From assembly GCF_003449015.1 (NCBI RefSeq), contig NZ_QRGD01000004.1:248001-312000 (forward strand): a stretch of 64,000 nt of DNA, given 5' to 3'. A program made the position numbers and the translations under genes. The first letter of the stretch is position 1. Each line of letters starts with the position of its first letter. This DNA is from Aureibaculum luteum (GTDB lineage Bacteria > Bacteroidota > Bacteroidia > Flavobacteriales > Flavobacteriaceae). Below the pieces are notes generated by a model. That model ran no database searches, was not told the DNA's origin, and saw nothing but the letters and a program-made list of their open reading frames with translations. Positions 1,692 through 7,251 of the stretch are shown piece by piece.

Positions 1692-2411
1692 ATGGCTCAA
1701 GTACAACATACTCAATATTATTCAAATACATTAAATAGAAATATTAACCTTGAAGTGACAGGACATTGGGGACATCCTATATTGATGTTTCCATCCTCTG
1801 GAGGTAAATATACACAAAACAATGATTTTGGCTTAAACGAATCCGTTATGCGATTTGTTGAAGAAGGTAGAATAAAGCTTTATAATATAGAAACACTAGA
1901 TATGTTAAGCTTTTATGCAGATGATTTACCAACCGATGTAATTATATATAATTATGAGTTATACATGCAGTTTCTTAAAAATGAAATGATTCCTTATATA
2001 CAAAATGAATGTAACACCCATAGAATAGCGGTTGCTGGTTGTAGTTTTGGAGGCTATCATGCGGCTAACACAGCATTTCGGTTTCCTGATTTAGTTTCAC
2101 ATTTATTTTCACTATCTGGTGTATTTAATATTAGAAATTTCACACCAAATTCAGACGATATGAGAATTTATTACAACTGCCCTAATGAGTTTATGGTAGA
2201 TGAAGAATCATGGAAATACAACCACATGGAAATTGTATTAAGTACATCTGATTGGGATAGCTGCAAGCCCAAAAACGAAAACATGGCAAGTGTTTTAGAG
2301 TCAAAAGGAATACCGTATTGGTATGATGAAAAAAAATGGATAGAACATGATTGGCCTTTGTGGAAAATGGTTTTTCCTGAATATGTAGAAAAATATTTTC
2401 CGCAATCTTAG
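1692..2411 (+). CDS. putative esterase-like alpha/beta hydrolase
   Basis: 239 residues, cytoplasmic by appearance. The elbow GCSFGG gives Ser118. STSDWDSC probably carries the Asp and IEHDWPLWK the His. The protein starts with a short strand region (LNRNINLEVTGHWG) and MFPSSGG, as in the small esterase-family proteins of Bacteroidota. It is the first gene of a rightward series continuing with ATP-grasp, GCS2, amidotransferase and a second ATP-grasp gene; the 121-bp gap to the next gene leaves open whether it is in the same transcript. In that context it may cleave an ester or amide in the product or precursor; this is inference. Confidence 0.75.
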   Translation: MAQVQHTQYYSNTLNRNINLEVTGHWGHPILMFPSSGGKYTQNNDFGLNESVMRFVEEGRIKLYNIETLDMLSFYADDLPTDVIIYNYELYMQFLKNEMIPYIQNECNTHRIAVAGCSFGGYHAANTAFRFPDLVSHLFSLSGVFNIRNFTPNSDDMRIYYNCPNEFMVDEESWKYNHMEIVLSTSDWDSCKPKNENMASVLESKGIPYWYDEKKWIEHDWPLWKMVFPEYVEKYFPQS

Positions 2412-2532
2412 ATAAATTTATAATAAATAAATTAGATTATAAACACTATTTATAATTAGAATTTGCATTTGAAATACAGGTAAATTATAGCTGAAAATTA
2501 ATTAAATTATAAAATCAAAAAAATAAAATATT

Positions 2533-3855
2533 ATGGCAAAAAAAGTTGGAATATTATTCGGAATGGAAGATACTTTTCCATGGGCATTCATAGATCGAGT
2601 TAATGAATTAGGAAAAGGTAAAGTAGTTGCTGAAGCAGTTAGTATCGATAAAGTTCAGCAAGGTATAGATTACGGATATGATGTCATTATTGATAGAATC
2701 TCGCAAGAAGTTCCTTTTTACCGTGCCTATTTAAAAAATGCATCATTAATGGGTACAGCAGTAATCAACAATCCTTTTTGGTGGAGTGCTGATGAAAAAT
2801 TCTTTAATAATTGTTTATCACTTCAAATTGGAGTACCAGTTCCAAAAACTATTTTATTACCCTCTAATGCTAGGCCAGATGATACTACTGACAAGTCTTT
2901 TAGAAATTTAAAAGCTCCTTTAGATTGGGATTATATTTTTAATTACATTGGTTTTCCTGCCTATATGAAACCTCATTCTGGCGGTGGATGGAAAAGTGTT
3001 TATCGTGTTGAAAATGCTGATGATTTATTCGAAAAACATGCTGAAACTGAACAATTGGTAATGATGCTTCAAGAAGAAATTGTATTTGAAGATTACTATC
3101 GCGTATATTGTTTAGGACAAAAGCATGTTCATATTATGCCATATGAACCTAGAAATGAACCTCATTTACGTTATGTAACTGAGCCTAAAACTAAAGGTGA
3201 AGAACACAAGAAGTTAATGAAAACAATTCATGATTATACGATTAAGTTGAATGAAGCTTTAGGTTACGACTTTAATACTGTTGAATTTGCCATTAGAAAT
3301 GGAGTTCCTTATGCTATAGATTTTTGCAATCCTGCACCAGATGCCGATATTAATTCTGTGGGACAAACTAATTTTGATTGGATTGTTGAACATTCTGCTC
3401 AATTAGCAGTTGAAAAAGCACTTGCACATAAGGGAAAACAAAATAATACTTCTTGGGGTACTTTTTTAACAAACGCCATTACACCCTTAAAATCAAAGAC
3501 AAAAAAATCTAAATTAAAATCGGCAAATCAGATTAAAAAATCTGTAATCAAAAAAGAAGTAAATGCCGCTGCCAAAAAAGTAAAAAAGGTTTCAGCAAAA
3601 AAAACAACACCTAAAAAAGTTGTGAAGCTTGCTCCCAAAGTTGATGCAAAACCCAAAGTTGTTGTGAAGCCAAAAGTAGTAGCTAAAAAAACAACTGTAG
3701 CCAAACCTAAAGCTGATGCCAAACCAAAGGTTGCTACAAAGCCAAAAGCAGCAGTTAAAAAAACAACTGTAACTAAACCTAAAGCAGTCACAAAACCAAA
3801 AGAAACGGTTAAAAAAACAGCGACAAAACCTAAAACTACGCCTAAGAAAAAATAG
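2533..3855 (+). CDS. ATP-grasp ligase with long lysine-rich C-terminal tail
   Basis: 440 residues. Residues 1-315 form a RimK/D-Ala-D-Ala-ligase-like ATP-grasp unit: N-terminal KKVGILFGMED, a lid/glycine loop in YMKPHSGGGWKSVYRV (Lys binding ATP), and the metal-binding end in NTVEFAIRNGVPYAIDFCNP (Glu, Asp, Asn). From about residue 318 to the end the protein becomes a low-complexity tail of Lys, Ala, Thr, Val and Pro with repeated KPK and AKKTT units, resembling histone H1-like tails. ATP-grasp enzymes join a carboxylate to an amine through an acyl phosphate. It is 33 bp upstream of the GCS2 gene and probably cotranscribed. Substrates are unknown. The tail could bind nucleic acid or supply lysines for modification; both are hypotheses. 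Confidence 0.8.
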   Translation: MAKKVGILFGMEDTFPWAFIDRVNELGKGKVVAEAVSIDKVQQGIDYGYDVIIDRISQEVPFYRAYLKNASLMGTAVINNPFWWSADEKFFNNCLSLQIGVPVPKTILLPSNARPDDTTDKSFRNLKAPLDWDYIFNYIGFPAYMKPHSGGGWKSVYRVENADDLFEKHAETEQLVMMLQEEIVFEDYYRVYCLGQKHVHIMPYEPRNEPHLRYVTEPKTKGEEHKKLMKTIHDYTIKLNEALGYDFNTVEFAIRNGVPYAIDFCNPAPDADINSVGQTNFDWIVEHSAQLAVEKALAHKGKQNNTSWGTFLTNAITPLKSKTKKSKLKSANQIKKSVIKKEVNAAAKKVKKVSAKKTTPKKVVKLAPKVDAKPKVVVKPKVVAKKTTVAKPKADAKPKVATKPKAAVKKTTVTKPKAVTKPKETVKKTATKPKTTPKKK

Positions 3856-3888
3856 AAATTAATTAATCATTAATCCACAACCACAGAT

Positions 3889-4986
3889 ATGCATAAATTC
3901 ACCCTTGGTATAGAAGAAGAATTTCAAATTCTAGATGGCGATACTTTAAAATTACGTTCCCATATGTCTAAAATTTTAGAAGGTGGAAAAGTTTTATTAA
4001 AAGAACGTATTAAAGAAGAAATGCATCAATCTGTGGTGGAAATGGGTACAAATGTTTGTGAGAATATTCAAGAAGCTAGAGACGAAGTTTCATATTTACG
4101 TCAGCAAGTAATTGATTTGGCTTCAAAAGAAGGATTGAAAGTAGCAGCGGCAGGTACGCATCCTATCTCAAATTGGAGTGAACAATTGATTACTAACAAT
4201 CCTCGTTACGATGAATTGATTGCTGAAATGAAAGATGTTGCTCGCTCCAATCTAATTTTTGGTATGCATGTTCATGTGGGTATTCCTAATCGTGAAGAAG
4301 GTTTGCATATTATGAATGTGGCTCGTTATTTTTTACCGCATTTATATGCATTATCTACCAACTCTCCATTTTGGGAAGCCAGAGAAACAGGTTTTAAGTC
4401 ATTTCGTTCTAAGATATTTGATAAATTTCCAAGAACAGGAATTCCTCCTTATTTTTCTAGTGTTGCTGAGTATGATAAATTTGTAGATATTTTAGTTAAA
4501 ACACATTGTATAGATAATGGCAAGAAAATTTGGTGGGATATTCGTTTACATCCTTTCTACCCTACAGTAGAATTTAGGGTTTGTGATATGATGATGACCG
4601 TTGATGAAGTAACATGTATTGCCGCAATTATGCAATGTATAATAGCAAAACTGAGTAAATTACATTCAAAAAATCAAAGTTTTAGATCATACAGACGTAT
4701 TTTAATTAATGAAAACAAATGGCGTGCAGCCCGTTGGGGTATAGAAGCAAAGCTTATAGATTTTGGTAAAGAAGAAGAAGTTCCATTTGCAATATTAATT
4801 CAAGAATTACTAGAATTTATTGATGATGTAGTTGATGATCTTGGATGCCGCACCGAAGTGAATTATGTATATCAAATGCTAGAACAAGGTTCGGGTGCTG
4901 ATAGACAATTAAAAGTCTTTGAAGAAACGGGCGATTTAAAAGAAGTTGTTAAATATATTGTAGAACAAACGGCAAAAGGTTTATAG
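3889..4986 (+). CDS. carboxylate-amine ligase, GCS2/YbdK family
   Basis: 365 residues, close to the length of E. coli YbdK. It shows the family marks in order: GIEEEFQ at residues 7-13, HVHVG in the middle, ALSTNSPFW, TVEFRVCD and NKWRAARWG. GCS2 proteins are glutamine-synthetase-fold enzymes; characterised relatives make gamma-glutamyl bonds (glutamate-cysteine ligase activity, usually weak in YbdK). In this gene order a role in joining Glu or another amino acid to an amine is plausible, but the acceptor cannot be read from the sequence. A 181-bp gap (4987-5167) with no evident gene or hairpin separates it from the amidotransferase gene. Confidence 0.88.
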   Translation: MHKFTLGIEEEFQILDGDTLKLRSHMSKILEGGKVLLKERIKEEMHQSVVEMGTNVCENIQEARDEVSYLRQQVIDLASKEGLKVAAAGTHPISNWSEQLITNNPRYDELIAEMKDVARSNLIFGMHVHVGIPNREEGLHIMNVARYFLPHLYALSTNSPFWEARETGFKSFRSKIFDKFPRTGIPPYFSSVAEYDKFVDILVKTHCIDNGKKIWWDIRLHPFYPTVEFRVCDMMMTVDEVTCIAAIMQCIIAKLSKLHSKNQSFRSYRRILINENKWRAARWGIEAKLIDFGKEEEVPFAILIQELLEFIDDVVDDLGCRTEVNYVYQMLEQGSGADRQLKVFEETGDLKEVVKYIVEQTAKGL

Positions 4987-5167
4987 AAGCGTAATTTTGC
5001 ATGCAACAAATAGTTCAACGTATTTTTAAGACTTATTTGCAAAGCTAAGTTTTTGGCAACTGCAATAAAGTTTGAATATAATGCGTCTTAGAACTTAGTT
5101 TTTAATCGAATCGAAAACAATCCAAAAATATACAGACTGTTTTTAAATTTAAAGATAAAGAAGAAGA

Positions 5168-6004
5168 ATGCAGAGTACTTATAAAATTGCAATTTTAGAT
5201 ATGAATGAAGGTGTACCAAATGAAGGTATGCGTTGTATAAAAATGTTGGTAGGTCAGTTTTTGGCTCAAGAAGGTATTAAAGGTAATTTTGATGTTTTTG
5301 AAGTAAGAGTTAAAGGAGAAATTCCGAAACTAGATAAATATAATATTTACATATCATCAGGTGGTCCTGGTTCTCCAAAATTAACGGGCTCACAATGGGA
5401 AAAAGACTATTTTAATTTAATTGATTCAATTTTAAGTCAAAACCTATTCAAGCATCAAAAGAAACATCTCTTTTTAATCTGTCACTCTTTTCAATTAGCG
5501 TGTTTACATTGGGATATTGCTAAAGTAACTAAACGAAGATCTACTTCTTTTGGAATACTGCCTATCCATAAAACAGAAAATGGATTTAATGAACCTCTTT
5601 TTGAAGGTTTAAAAGATCCCTTCTATGCGGTTGACTCAAGAGACTATCAAGTCGTTATGCCGAAAGAATGGAAACTTAATAGTTTAGAAGGTAATATTCT
5701 TTGTAGAGAAAAAATAAGACCAGATGTACCTTTAGAAAGAGCAGTAATGGCTATCCGATTTACCAAAGAAATTTTCGGAACACAGTTTCATCCAGAGGCT
5801 GATGCTGAAGGAATGACACGTTATTTTCAACAAGAAGAAAAACGGGCTTTAGTAATCAAAAAATATGGTAAAAAGAAATACCTAAGTATGATAAATCAAT
5901 TAAACGATGATGATAAGATTTTAAGAACGAATAGTATTATTATTCCTCGTTTTTTAGAAATGGCGGCAGAAAAAATTAAACAATCAAAATTAGCATCTGT
6001 ATGA
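5168..6004 (+). CDS. class I glutamine amidotransferase-like protein
   Basis: 278 residues. The GATase triad is present: nucleophile Cys105 in FLICHSFQLAC, His208 and Glu210 in FGTQFHPEAD. SSGGPGSP near residue 63 is the usual oxyanion-side loop. The C-terminal ~60 residues extend past the GATase fold. Such stand-alone domains either supply ammonia from glutamine to a partner synthetase or hydrolyse gamma-glutamyl bonds. Its stop overlaps the start of the next ATP-grasp-like gene by 4 bp, arguing for translational coupling and joint function. Confidence 0.85.
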   Translation: MQSTYKIAILDMNEGVPNEGMRCIKMLVGQFLAQEGIKGNFDVFEVRVKGEIPKLDKYNIYISSGGPGSPKLTGSQWEKDYFNLIDSILSQNLFKHQKKHLFLICHSFQLACLHWDIAKVTKRRSTSFGILPIHKTENGFNEPLFEGLKDPFYAVDSRDYQVVMPKEWKLNSLEGNILCREKIRPDVPLERAVMAIRFTKEIFGTQFHPEADAEGMTRYFQQEEKRALVIKKYGKKKYLSMINQLNDDDKILRTNSIIIPRFLEMAAEKIKQSKLASV

Positions 6005-7200
6005 TACCAAAAATTCGTAATGCTTTTAATGAAAATTTTAAAGATGAATACTATGATAACTTACAACAAGATGTAAAAGATACTTTTGGAGAAGAATGTG
6101 CTTTCCGTATTTCTGAAACTCCTGTTTTTATAGATGCATCCTTAGAAAATAAAATTTTTGATGCCTGTAATTCTATTATTGAACAGTTATGGAAAATTGA
6201 TTTTGATGAAATTCGACAAAAATTTATACCAAAGTCATTACAATCACCTAGTCCCATGGGCAAACCTCATTTTCTAGCTATAGATTTTGGACTTTGTGAT
6301 GATGGAAATGGCAATATTGTACCGCAATTAATAGAATTGCAGGCCTTCCCTACCCTATTTTTTTATCAACCCTTTTTAGGTAAAGCCGTTTTAAAACACT
6401 ACAAGAATTTTCCAAAAGGAGATTTTCATTATTTTTTCAGTAAGCTAAATGATAAAACATATATAGAGGAAGTTAGAAAAGTAATTTTAAGTGATGAGAA
6501 ACCTGAGAATGTAATTTTAATGGAACTTTATCCTGATAAACAAAAAACCAGAATAGATTTTTGGGCAACGAAACAAGCCTTGGGTATTGAAGTGGTGTGT
6601 ATGACCCAAATTATTAAAGAAGGTAAAAAGCTATTTTATATAAAAGACGGAGTAAAAACACCTATTCATCGTATATATAATCGTGTAATTTTAGATGAAT
6701 TATTGCAAATAAAAGACTTAAAAACCAACATAAATTTAAATGATAACCTTGACGTAGAATGGGTTACACATCCCGATTGGTTTTTTATGATTTCTAAATG
6801 TATTATGCCTTTATTAAAACATAAATACATACCAAAATCCTATTATTTAAATGATTACCCTACTGATTTAGATCTCAATAAATATGTACTTAAACCCCTC
6901 TTTTCTTTTGCAGGTAAAGGAATAAATCTCTACCCAACACAAGAAACTATTAATGATATAAAGGATAAAGAGAATTATATACTACAACAAAAAGTAAACT
7001 ACGCCTCTTTAGTGAAAACAAATACGGAAAAAAATTCTAAGGTAGAATTACGTATCCTTTATATTTGGGACGAAGCAGCCAACAAATTAAAACCCGTTAT
7101 CAACTTAACCAGAATGAGTAAAGGTGAACTAATTAATGTTTCTCATTTAACTGAAGATACATGGATTGGGTCTTCTATTAGTTTTTTCGAGAACGCATAA
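6001..7200 (+). CDS. divergent ATP-grasp-like ligase
   Basis: 399 residues, no signal peptide. The ATP-grasp assignment rests on a Lys/Gly block near residue 300 (YVLKPLFSFAGKGINL), like the nucleotide loop of glutathionylspermidine-synthase/circularly permuted ATP-grasp proteins, and a following acidic strand (KVELRILYIWDE). An earlier FLAIDFGLCDDG and QLIELQAFPTL block fits the same fold. The order of motifs differs from the first ATP-grasp protein at 2533, so the two are not recent duplicates. The ATG overlaps the amidotransferase stop codon (ATGA). The run ends 12 bp later at a strong terminator. Substrate is unknown. Confidence 0.65.
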   Translation: MIPKIRNAFNENFKDEYYDNLQQDVKDTFGEECAFRISETPVFIDASLENKIFDACNSIIEQLWKIDFDEIRQKFIPKSLQSPSPMGKPHFLAIDFGLCDDGNGNIVPQLIELQAFPTLFFYQPFLGKAVLKHYKNFPKGDFHYFFSKLNDKTYIEEVRKVILSDEKPENVILMELYPDKQKTRIDFWATKQALGIEVVCMTQIIKEGKKLFYIKDGVKTPIHRIYNRVILDELLQIKDLKTNINLNDNLDVEWVTHPDWFFMISKCIMPLLKHKYIPKSYYLNDYPTDLDLNKYVLKPLFSFAGKGINLYPTQETINDIKDKENYILQQKVNYASLVKTNTEKNSKVELRILYIWDEAANKLKPVINLTRMSKGELINVSHLTEDTWIGSSISFFENA

Positions 7201-7212
7201 TAGACCTATATA

Positions 7213-7251
7213 AAAAAGAGTCAAGACAACCTTTTTGTCTTGACTCTTTTT
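7213..7251. terminator. bidirectional intrinsic terminator
   Basis: 17-bp arms (7213-7229 and 7235-7251; core AGAGTCAAGACA / TGTCTTGACTCT) flanked by A and T runs. It lies between the rightward ligase genes and the leftward ssb. Confidence 0.85.

Follow-up and report, generated by a model that had tools for sequence, protein, structure and literature searches.

A conserved gene run in Bacteroidota with three predicted amide ligases: a candidate pathway to a gamma-glutamyl peptide or amide

The window analysed here is a 64,000-nucleotide stretch of the Aureibaculum luteum genome (NCBI RefSeq assembly GCF_003449015.1, contig NZ_QRGD01000004.1, positions 248,001 to 312,000). At 1692-7200 it carries five consecutive rightward genes, for a small esterase, an ATP-grasp protein (ATP-grasp 1), a GCS2/YbdK-type carboxylate-amine ligase (GCS2), a free-standing class I glutamine amidotransferase domain protein (GATase) and a second ATP-grasp protein (ATP-grasp 2). 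This set is solid as a genomic unit: its gene order is kept across Bacteroidota, and its three ligase genes occur together also in genomes where they are not linked. The unit is proposed to build, step by step, a small gamma-glutamyl peptide or amide resembling glutathione, with hydrolytic trimming. The chemistry is speculative, and this reading is preferred with confidence a little short of even.

We infer the substrates, the order of the steps, the product and the hydrolytic role as follows. GCS2 would join the gamma-carboxylate of glutamate, or of a similar acid, to an amine and form an amide. ATP-grasp 2 would add a second amine, an amino acid or a polyamine, onto the C-terminal carboxylate of this intermediate, extending or capping it, and ATP-grasp 1, of Ddl/LysX type, would form a third amide bond. 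A hydrolytic role would fall to the esterase and the GATase (or to an M29-type peptidase in its position), the GATase most likely removing or recycling the gamma-glutamyl group. These steps would yield a small peptide or peptide-amide that resembles glutathione. The scheme follows the logic of glutathione synthesis, because GCS2 is combined with an ATP-grasp protein of glutathione synthetase fold: a gamma-glutamyl amide is formed and then extended at the other carboxylate.

Gene order and co-retention of three ligases

The genes for the esterase (1692-2411), ATP-grasp 1 (2533-3855), GCS2 (3889-4986), the GATase (5168-6004) and ATP-grasp 2 (6001-7200) all lie on the plus strand. The initial annotation described four successive rightward genes behind a small esterase, with a 33-bp gap in the first pair and an ATGA overlap in the last. 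The positions of the open reading frames (ORFs) confirm this layout, and both details are exact: the gap between ATP-grasp 1 and GCS2 spans 3856-3888, and the ATGA at 6001-6004 is common to the end of the GATase gene and the start of ATP-grasp 2. Wider gaps separate the esterase from ATP-grasp 1 (121 bp) and GCS2 from the GATase (181 bp). The run stops at ATP-grasp 2, because a terminator-like hairpin follows on the plus strand (7213-7251; a 17-pair stem, then a T-rich tail) and the next gene, encoding SSB, is on the opposite strand. Two terminator-like sites, this hairpin being one of them, were found against 2.7 expected by shuffling, and the case for the hairpin therefore rests on its position and stem length. 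The five genes are thus confirmed as a single rightward run closed by a hairpin. A sigma-70-like site (5053-5082; 11 of 12 matches) lies within the 181-bp gap and may be an internal promoter; the scan that returned it gave 44 sites against 32 expected. A Bacteroidota-type promoter pattern gave 8 matches in the window against 9.4 expected and was uninformative.

Conservation of the order was assessed at the best 80 genome-contig matches to ATP-grasp 1, from a scan listing the best 80 (the named loci). Their titles are all Bacteroidota: Flavobacteriaceae, Chryseobacterium and its kin, Cytophagales, Saprospiraceae, Hymenobacter and Mucilaginibacter. Being best matches, they are biased to near relatives. 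ATP-grasp 1, GCS2, the GATase and ATP-grasp 2 follow one another in this order on one strand at 68 of the 80, with the esterase in front at 67 (tblastn). The GATase and/or ATP-grasp 2 of L122, L138, L166, L167 and L174 were detected by tblastn, and the count of 68 includes L101 and L149, where ORFs are split. At seven of the remaining 12 loci the downstream sequence is shorter than 4.5 kb.

Co-occurrence was then counted, from strong-score matches, in a sample of 395 Bacteroidota genomes. The weak matches excluded were 7 of 141 for ATP-grasp 1, 15 of 101 for the GATase, 1 of 130 for GCS2 and 0 of 114 for ATP-grasp 2. The carriers number 114 for ATP-grasp 2, 134 for ATP-grasp 1, 129 for GCS2 and 86 for the GATase, each core ligase being present in 29-34% of the genomes. 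Both ATP-grasp genes occur together in 110 genomes (38.7 expected), GCS2 and ATP-grasp 2 in 109 (37.2 expected), and ATP-grasp 1 and GCS2 in 114 (43.8 expected); all four genes are present in 64. ATP-grasp 2 occurs without ATP-grasp 1 in 4 genomes and without GCS2 in 5. The conserved order and the co-occurrence across Bacteroidota, which the initial annotation had proposed as its check, are thus both found.

A sign less bound to ancestry comes from the family of the window's genome. The eight ATP-grasp 2 carriers sampled there also have GCS2 and the GATase, and seven have ATP-grasp 1, against zero matches to ATP-grasp 1, GCS2 or the GATase in the 20 listed members of the family that lack ATP-grasp 2. 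Within the genus, 17 genomes were compared, some of them (the window's own apart) incomplete; ATP-grasp 2 is carried by 5, namely the window's genome and four others that hold the whole run.

Sixty loci around ATP-grasp 2 were taken from the 114 carrier genomes and three same-genus genomes; they were chosen for family spread and are non-random. The full quintet is found at 20, a four-gene string at 3 and partial strings at 17; at the other 20, ATP-grasp 2 has no partner upstream on the same strand. All 20 genomes with such an unlinked ATP-grasp 2 nevertheless carry ATP-grasp 1 and 19 carry GCS2, against base rates of about one third; the GATase is present in 3. This co-retention without linkage is the strongest argument for the three ligases working together. 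Since the unlinked genomes keep ATP-grasp 1 and GCS2 and rarely the GATase, the set is described as a core of three ligases with the GATase as an accessory. A chance neighbourhood is ruled out by the order kept at 68 of 80 loci, the genome-level co-occurrence and the co-retention without linkage. Pairwise distances of the five proteins are alike (r 0.88-0.93, 50 loci); this comparison has no outside control gene and is unused as evidence.

Folds, conserved residues and the reactions they suggest

By family cut-offs, GCS2 is assigned as a YbdK-type carboxylate-amine ligase: it scores 211.6 bits against PF04107 (cut-off 21), 545 against PRK13515 (371) and 298.6 against TIGR02050 (176.4), and a profile search against solved structures returned YbdK at E=4.7e-65. 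GCS2 relatives of 40-43% identity (family f52) occur without either ATP-grasp protein in G204, G243, G251, G282, G294, G306, G314 and G428; a GCS2 of this kind therefore has other settings too.

The two remaining ligases are called ATP-grasp proteins because of their predicted folds. For ATP-grasp 2, the sole Pfam match is to the glutathionylspermidine synthase family PF03738 (GSP_synth), at 25.5 bits and under the cut-off of 29.3, and the profile search against solved structures gave YgiC at E 0.0049. Its AlphaFold2 model has a mean predicted local distance difference test score (pLDDT) of 91.7. Foldseek matched this model to glutathione synthetase (E 1.2e-13) and to YgiC and YjfC (about 1e-12). 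All 25 chains at E <=0.001 are glutathione synthetases or glutathione synthetase-like, YgiC/YjfC or glutathionylspermidine synthetases, with query template modelling (TM) scores of 0.47-0.62. Residues D95, E112, Q114, K298, E349 and R351 are invariant in 26 of 26 sequences (set A3) and 42 of 42 (set A6).

In E. coli Gss the motif R-x-D...E-x-N corresponds to R316, D318, E330 and N332, and the same pattern is present in YgiC and in a circularly permuted ATP-grasp protein described below. The counterpart in ATP-grasp 2, D95...E112-x-Q114, resembles D318...E330-x-N332 of Gss, the two being matched by motif and not by alignment. Its residues are putative metal ligands, by this motif comparison and by what is known of Gss. 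At the R position of R-x-D, ATP-grasp 2 proteins have A, V, Q or I in set A3 and A, G, T, C or Q in set A6. By the motif comparison, ATP-grasp 2 departs from the R-x-D...E-x-N motif of the PF03738/YgiC family. In hhalign, YgiC was aligned with ATP-grasp 2 in the C-terminal part only, and Gss and the permuted protein gave nothing usable.

These matches bear on one of the two nearest rivals of the proposed pathway, in which ATP-grasp 2 would join a peptide, possibly gamma-glutamyl, to a polyamine and the hydrolases would release it, so that polyamines are buffered. YgiC and YjfC are among the best fold matches of ATP-grasp 2, and they are reported as peptide-spermidine ligases, in a title cited in PMC12568646 and in annotation. 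The sub-threshold PF03738 match points the same way, and an amine-oxidase-type flavoprotein (PF01593) two genes upstream at L082 is an unspecific hint. However, glutathione synthetases score equally in fold, the profile comparison with Gss gave no usable match, and, L082 aside, zero polyamine hints were seen among the neighbours run against Pfam, a subset of all neighbours. Polyamine conjugation is thus considered unlikely, and extension or capping of a gamma-glutamyl intermediate is preferred as the role of ATP-grasp 2. The initial annotation had suggested a short gamma-glutamyl or other peptide-like product. The fold of ATP-grasp 2 beside a GCS2 fits a product of this predicted type.

ATP-grasp 1 matched zero Pfam families at E 0.1. 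The profile search against solved structures gave weak matches to Ddl (E 0.0017) and biotin carboxylase (E 0.0024). Its AlphaFold2 model, computed without the C-terminal tail, has a mean pLDDT of 88.1, and among the 50 Foldseek matches listed are Ddl, LysX/ArgX, a RimK-type protein and the graspetide ligase PsnB. In two sets, of 26 and 40 sequences, K146, E251, D263 and N266 do not vary. The tail is lysine-rich and starts after about residue 320. Such tails (window 3490-3855; also L036-L039, L045, L061 and L139) are partly histone-H1-like and very variable in length. With a tail defined as at least 25 residues long and at least 20% K+R, and judged where the preceding motif was found (32 of 35 proteins in a first set and 67 of 78 in the named set), it is carried by 16 of 32 and 24 of 67 ATP-grasp 1 proteins, respectively. 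At L192, L193 and L195, ATP-grasp 1 has a metallophosphoesterase on one side and an aromatic amino acid lyase on the other (as assigned by Pfam on L192), and the neighbour of GCS2 matches serine carboxypeptidase S10 (by Pfam on L193).

The fold matches of ATP-grasp 1 to LysX/ArgX, a RimK-type protein and PsnB, together with the variable-length lysine-rich tail in part of its family, would suit the modification of a protein or polymer, such as a peptide tag or a RimK/TTL-like or carrier-protein system. This appears rather improbable, as 16 of 32 and 43 of 67 judged proteins have no such tail, and no conserved small ORF (20-100 aa, ATG start) was found near the run, a search covering the surroundings of the run only. 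Among 680 small ORFs of the named and fetched loci, no precursor of a ribosomally synthesized and post-translationally modified peptide (RiPP) or graspetide, carrier or tag was conserved. The largest group comprises 6 loci and lies inside an upstream ORF of about 170 aa; the others are spurious-looking, antisense or gene fragments. The protein tag that the initial annotation had offered as an option is unsupported by these results. Formation of a third amide bond on a small molecule is the preferred role of ATP-grasp 1.

The GATase gene product scores 30.9 bits against PF00117 (cut-off 22.8), and a single uncharacterised protein, 3l7n, was returned by the profile search against solved structures (E 4.9e-5). 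C105, Q109, H208 and E210 are invariant in 24 of 24 sequences; C105, H208 and E210 are presumably the Cys-His-Glu catalytic residues. GATase-family members use such conserved residues on glutamine or gamma-glutamyl groups. A gamma-glutamyl hydrolase, or a glutaminase, is predicted. The esterase, of the alpha/beta-hydrolase fold, scores 39.1 bits against PF00756 (cut-off 22), and a profile search of the PDB returned CE1/ferulic acid esterases. The column of its putative nucleophile holds S in 15 of 17 sequences, D189 is present in 17 of 17 and H219 in 16 of 17.

Optional and interchangeable parts

A strong GATase match is missing from 42 of the 110 genomes having both ATP-grasp genes, and ATP-grasp 1 occurs without the GATase in 50 genomes. 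Ten fetched loci have the three ligases and no GATase between them. At four of these (L078, L083, L089 and L090) an M29-type peptidase occupies the GATase position, and no strong GATase match was found anywhere in their genomes; at the other six the position is empty. At 12 loci fetched around GATases, and chosen because the GATase was unlinked, zero other members of the set were seen. The GATase as an obligatory partner, as implied by the initial annotation, is therefore given up. These results also bear on the reading in which the GATase is a true glutaminase and supplies ammonia to one of the ATP-grasp proteins for a primary amide. The intact C-H-E residues and Q109 would allow this, and the GATase tracks ATP-grasp 1, which is present in 84 of 86 GATase genomes; but this GATase has no strong match in the 42 genomes, and where a peptidase takes its position, a supply of ammonia is not expected. 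This reading is judged very unlikely. Hydrolysis is preferred over ammonia supply because a peptidase is found in the GATase position, and the repeated presence of hydrolases (GATase or M29, M17, esterase) points to trimming or turnover.

ATP-grasp 2 may be exchanged as well. Eleven loci were chosen from the 24 genomes that have ATP-grasp 1 without ATP-grasp 2, all eleven from genomes with a GATase. At 8 of them ATP-grasp 1 is followed by a circularly permuted ATP-grasp-type protein of about 452 aa, with the GATase called directly after it at 6 and a further esterase thereafter at 4. PF14403 was over threshold in one of three permuted proteins tested. The remaining 3 loci were poorly resolved by ORF calling.

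Other genes accompany the run at part of the loci. An M17 aminopeptidase and a third ATP-grasp protein (Pfam on examples) lie upstream on the same strand at 22-23 of the 80 named loci, in Chryseobacterium-type genera by title; the match to the third ATP-grasp in the window's genome is weak (25% identity). A class III aminotransferase (e.g. L140:12446-13657; assigned by Pfam on three loci) directly follows ATP-grasp 2 at 13 of the 69 named loci where an ORF for it was called. An SSF sodium:solute symporter is fused to ATP-grasp 2 in L080 (9570-12173) and adjoins it in L081 (6189-7574) and L094 (9538-10602). An Amidohydro_3 protein adjoins ATP-grasp 2 in L069, L070, L071 and L076 and the GATase in L052, as assigned by Pfam in L069 and L052 and by similarity in the other three. 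In the window, a divergent second esterase, est0, lies at 733-1551 on the minus strand (PF00756, 88.6 bits). It is a frequent but optional neighbour: an est0-like ORF on the opposite strand and at most four ORFs upstream is found at 29 of the 66 named loci whose sequence reaches 3.5 kb or more beyond ATP-grasp 1 on the upstream side. Spread by mobile elements and a role in defence were also considered. ATP-grasp 1 was unmatched in a plasmid collection of 72,556 records, 0 of 8 pattern matches in viral contigs encode a relative, and a PADLOC search for anti-phage defence with 6 proteins gave 0 matches at E 0.01.

The second of the nearest rivals is a catabolic or salvage route. In the Puu pathway (PuuA/PuuD) an amine is gamma-glutamylated and modified, and the glutamate is later removed. 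In a similar manner GCS2 would gamma-glutamylate an amine, other enzymes would modify it and the GATase would remove the glutamate. One run holds both a ligase and a hydrolase, peptidases (M29, M17 and S10) are found in the neighbourhood, and the class III aminotransferase at 13 of 69 loci and the symporter fused to or beside ATP-grasp 2 would suit such a route. Yet the three ligases are constant, whereas the aminotransferase, peptidases and symporter each occur in part of the loci and the GATase itself is optional. We give this route a similarly low probability to polyamine conjugation, and stepwise synthesis of a gamma-glutamyl peptide or amide stays the preferred reading.

Several observations weigh against that synthesis. 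The co-occurrence figures leave shared ancestry uncorrected, so that their hypergeometric p-values (all <1e-29) are not read literally, and ATP-grasp 2 is missing from 20 genomes with GCS2 and 24 with ATP-grasp 1. GCS2 is present in 73 of the 86 GATase genomes; the GATase thus tracks ATP-grasp 1 over GCS2, which weakens the idea that it undoes the GCS2 step. ATP-grasp 2 has Q for the N of the Gss E-x-N motif and is without the R of R-x-D, the nucleophile serine is missing from 2 of 17 esterases, and the class III aminotransferase fits a catabolic route too. In addition, bshC is present in the window's genome, together with two proteins over the PF02955 cut-off. According to an excerpt of PMC6282198, production of bacillithiol-type thiols is predicted for Bacteroidetes and was demonstrated in one Polaribacter. 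A glutathione-like thiol is therefore not obviously needed, nor does the product have to be a redox thiol. That it is the main cellular thiol is made less likely by bshC.

With still greater reserve we put forward the broader claim of a widespread gamma-glutamyl peptide or peptide-amide in Bacteroidota, made by three ligases, one from a Pfam-less ATP-grasp family, with interchangeable parts (ATP-grasp 2 or the circularly permuted ATP-grasp; GATase or M29-type peptidase), and in a genome that has bshC. If the three ligases make one compound, an unrecognised small peptide would occur across much of the phylum, and a pathway would be found for genes of Chryseobacterium, Dyadobacter, Hymenobacter and Algoriphagus that now have none. 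Because presence is patchy within the genus, the metabolomes of close strains with and without the set can be compared directly.

Comparison with known systems

The exact set, the Pfam-less ATP-grasp family and the swaps were not found in the literature by title and abstract, a coverage outside which the survey of Iyer et al. 2009 lies. The kind of system is already known from statements in excerpts of two papers. PMC4431377 states that there are several cases of linkage between ATP-grasp and COOH-NH2 ligases and that these make peptide-derived metabolites; the amidoligase clusters predicted by Iyer et al. 2009 (Mol Biosyst, PMC3268129), as given in that excerpt, are alike in linking these two ligase types. 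In PMC2588565 (Iyer et al. 2008), GCS2-sized ligases that have a GATase-like thiol peptidase as neighbour are described for proteobacteria and predicted to make glutathione-related peptides. The present run likewise has a GCS-fold ligase adjoining a GATase-like hydrolase; those systems are proteobacterial, and the excerpt does not mention an ATP-grasp pair or an esterase.

E. coli YgiC/YjfC and Gss share with ATP-grasp 2 the fold and the D...E-x-N-like motif. They differ in that the profile match of ATP-grasp 2 covers the C-terminal part of YgiC only, that it is without the amidase fusion, and that Q replaces N and the R of R-x-D is absent. Eukaryotic-type glutathione synthesis is alike in having a GCS-family ligase, here GCS2, and an ATP-grasp protein of glutathione synthetase fold, which the run holds in one unit. 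In contrast to that pathway, the ligase of the present run is YbdK-type, ATP-grasp 2 scores under its Pfam cut-off and carries Q in place of the N of the E-x-N-like motif, the run includes a third ligase together with a GATase and an esterase, and the genome also carries bshC.

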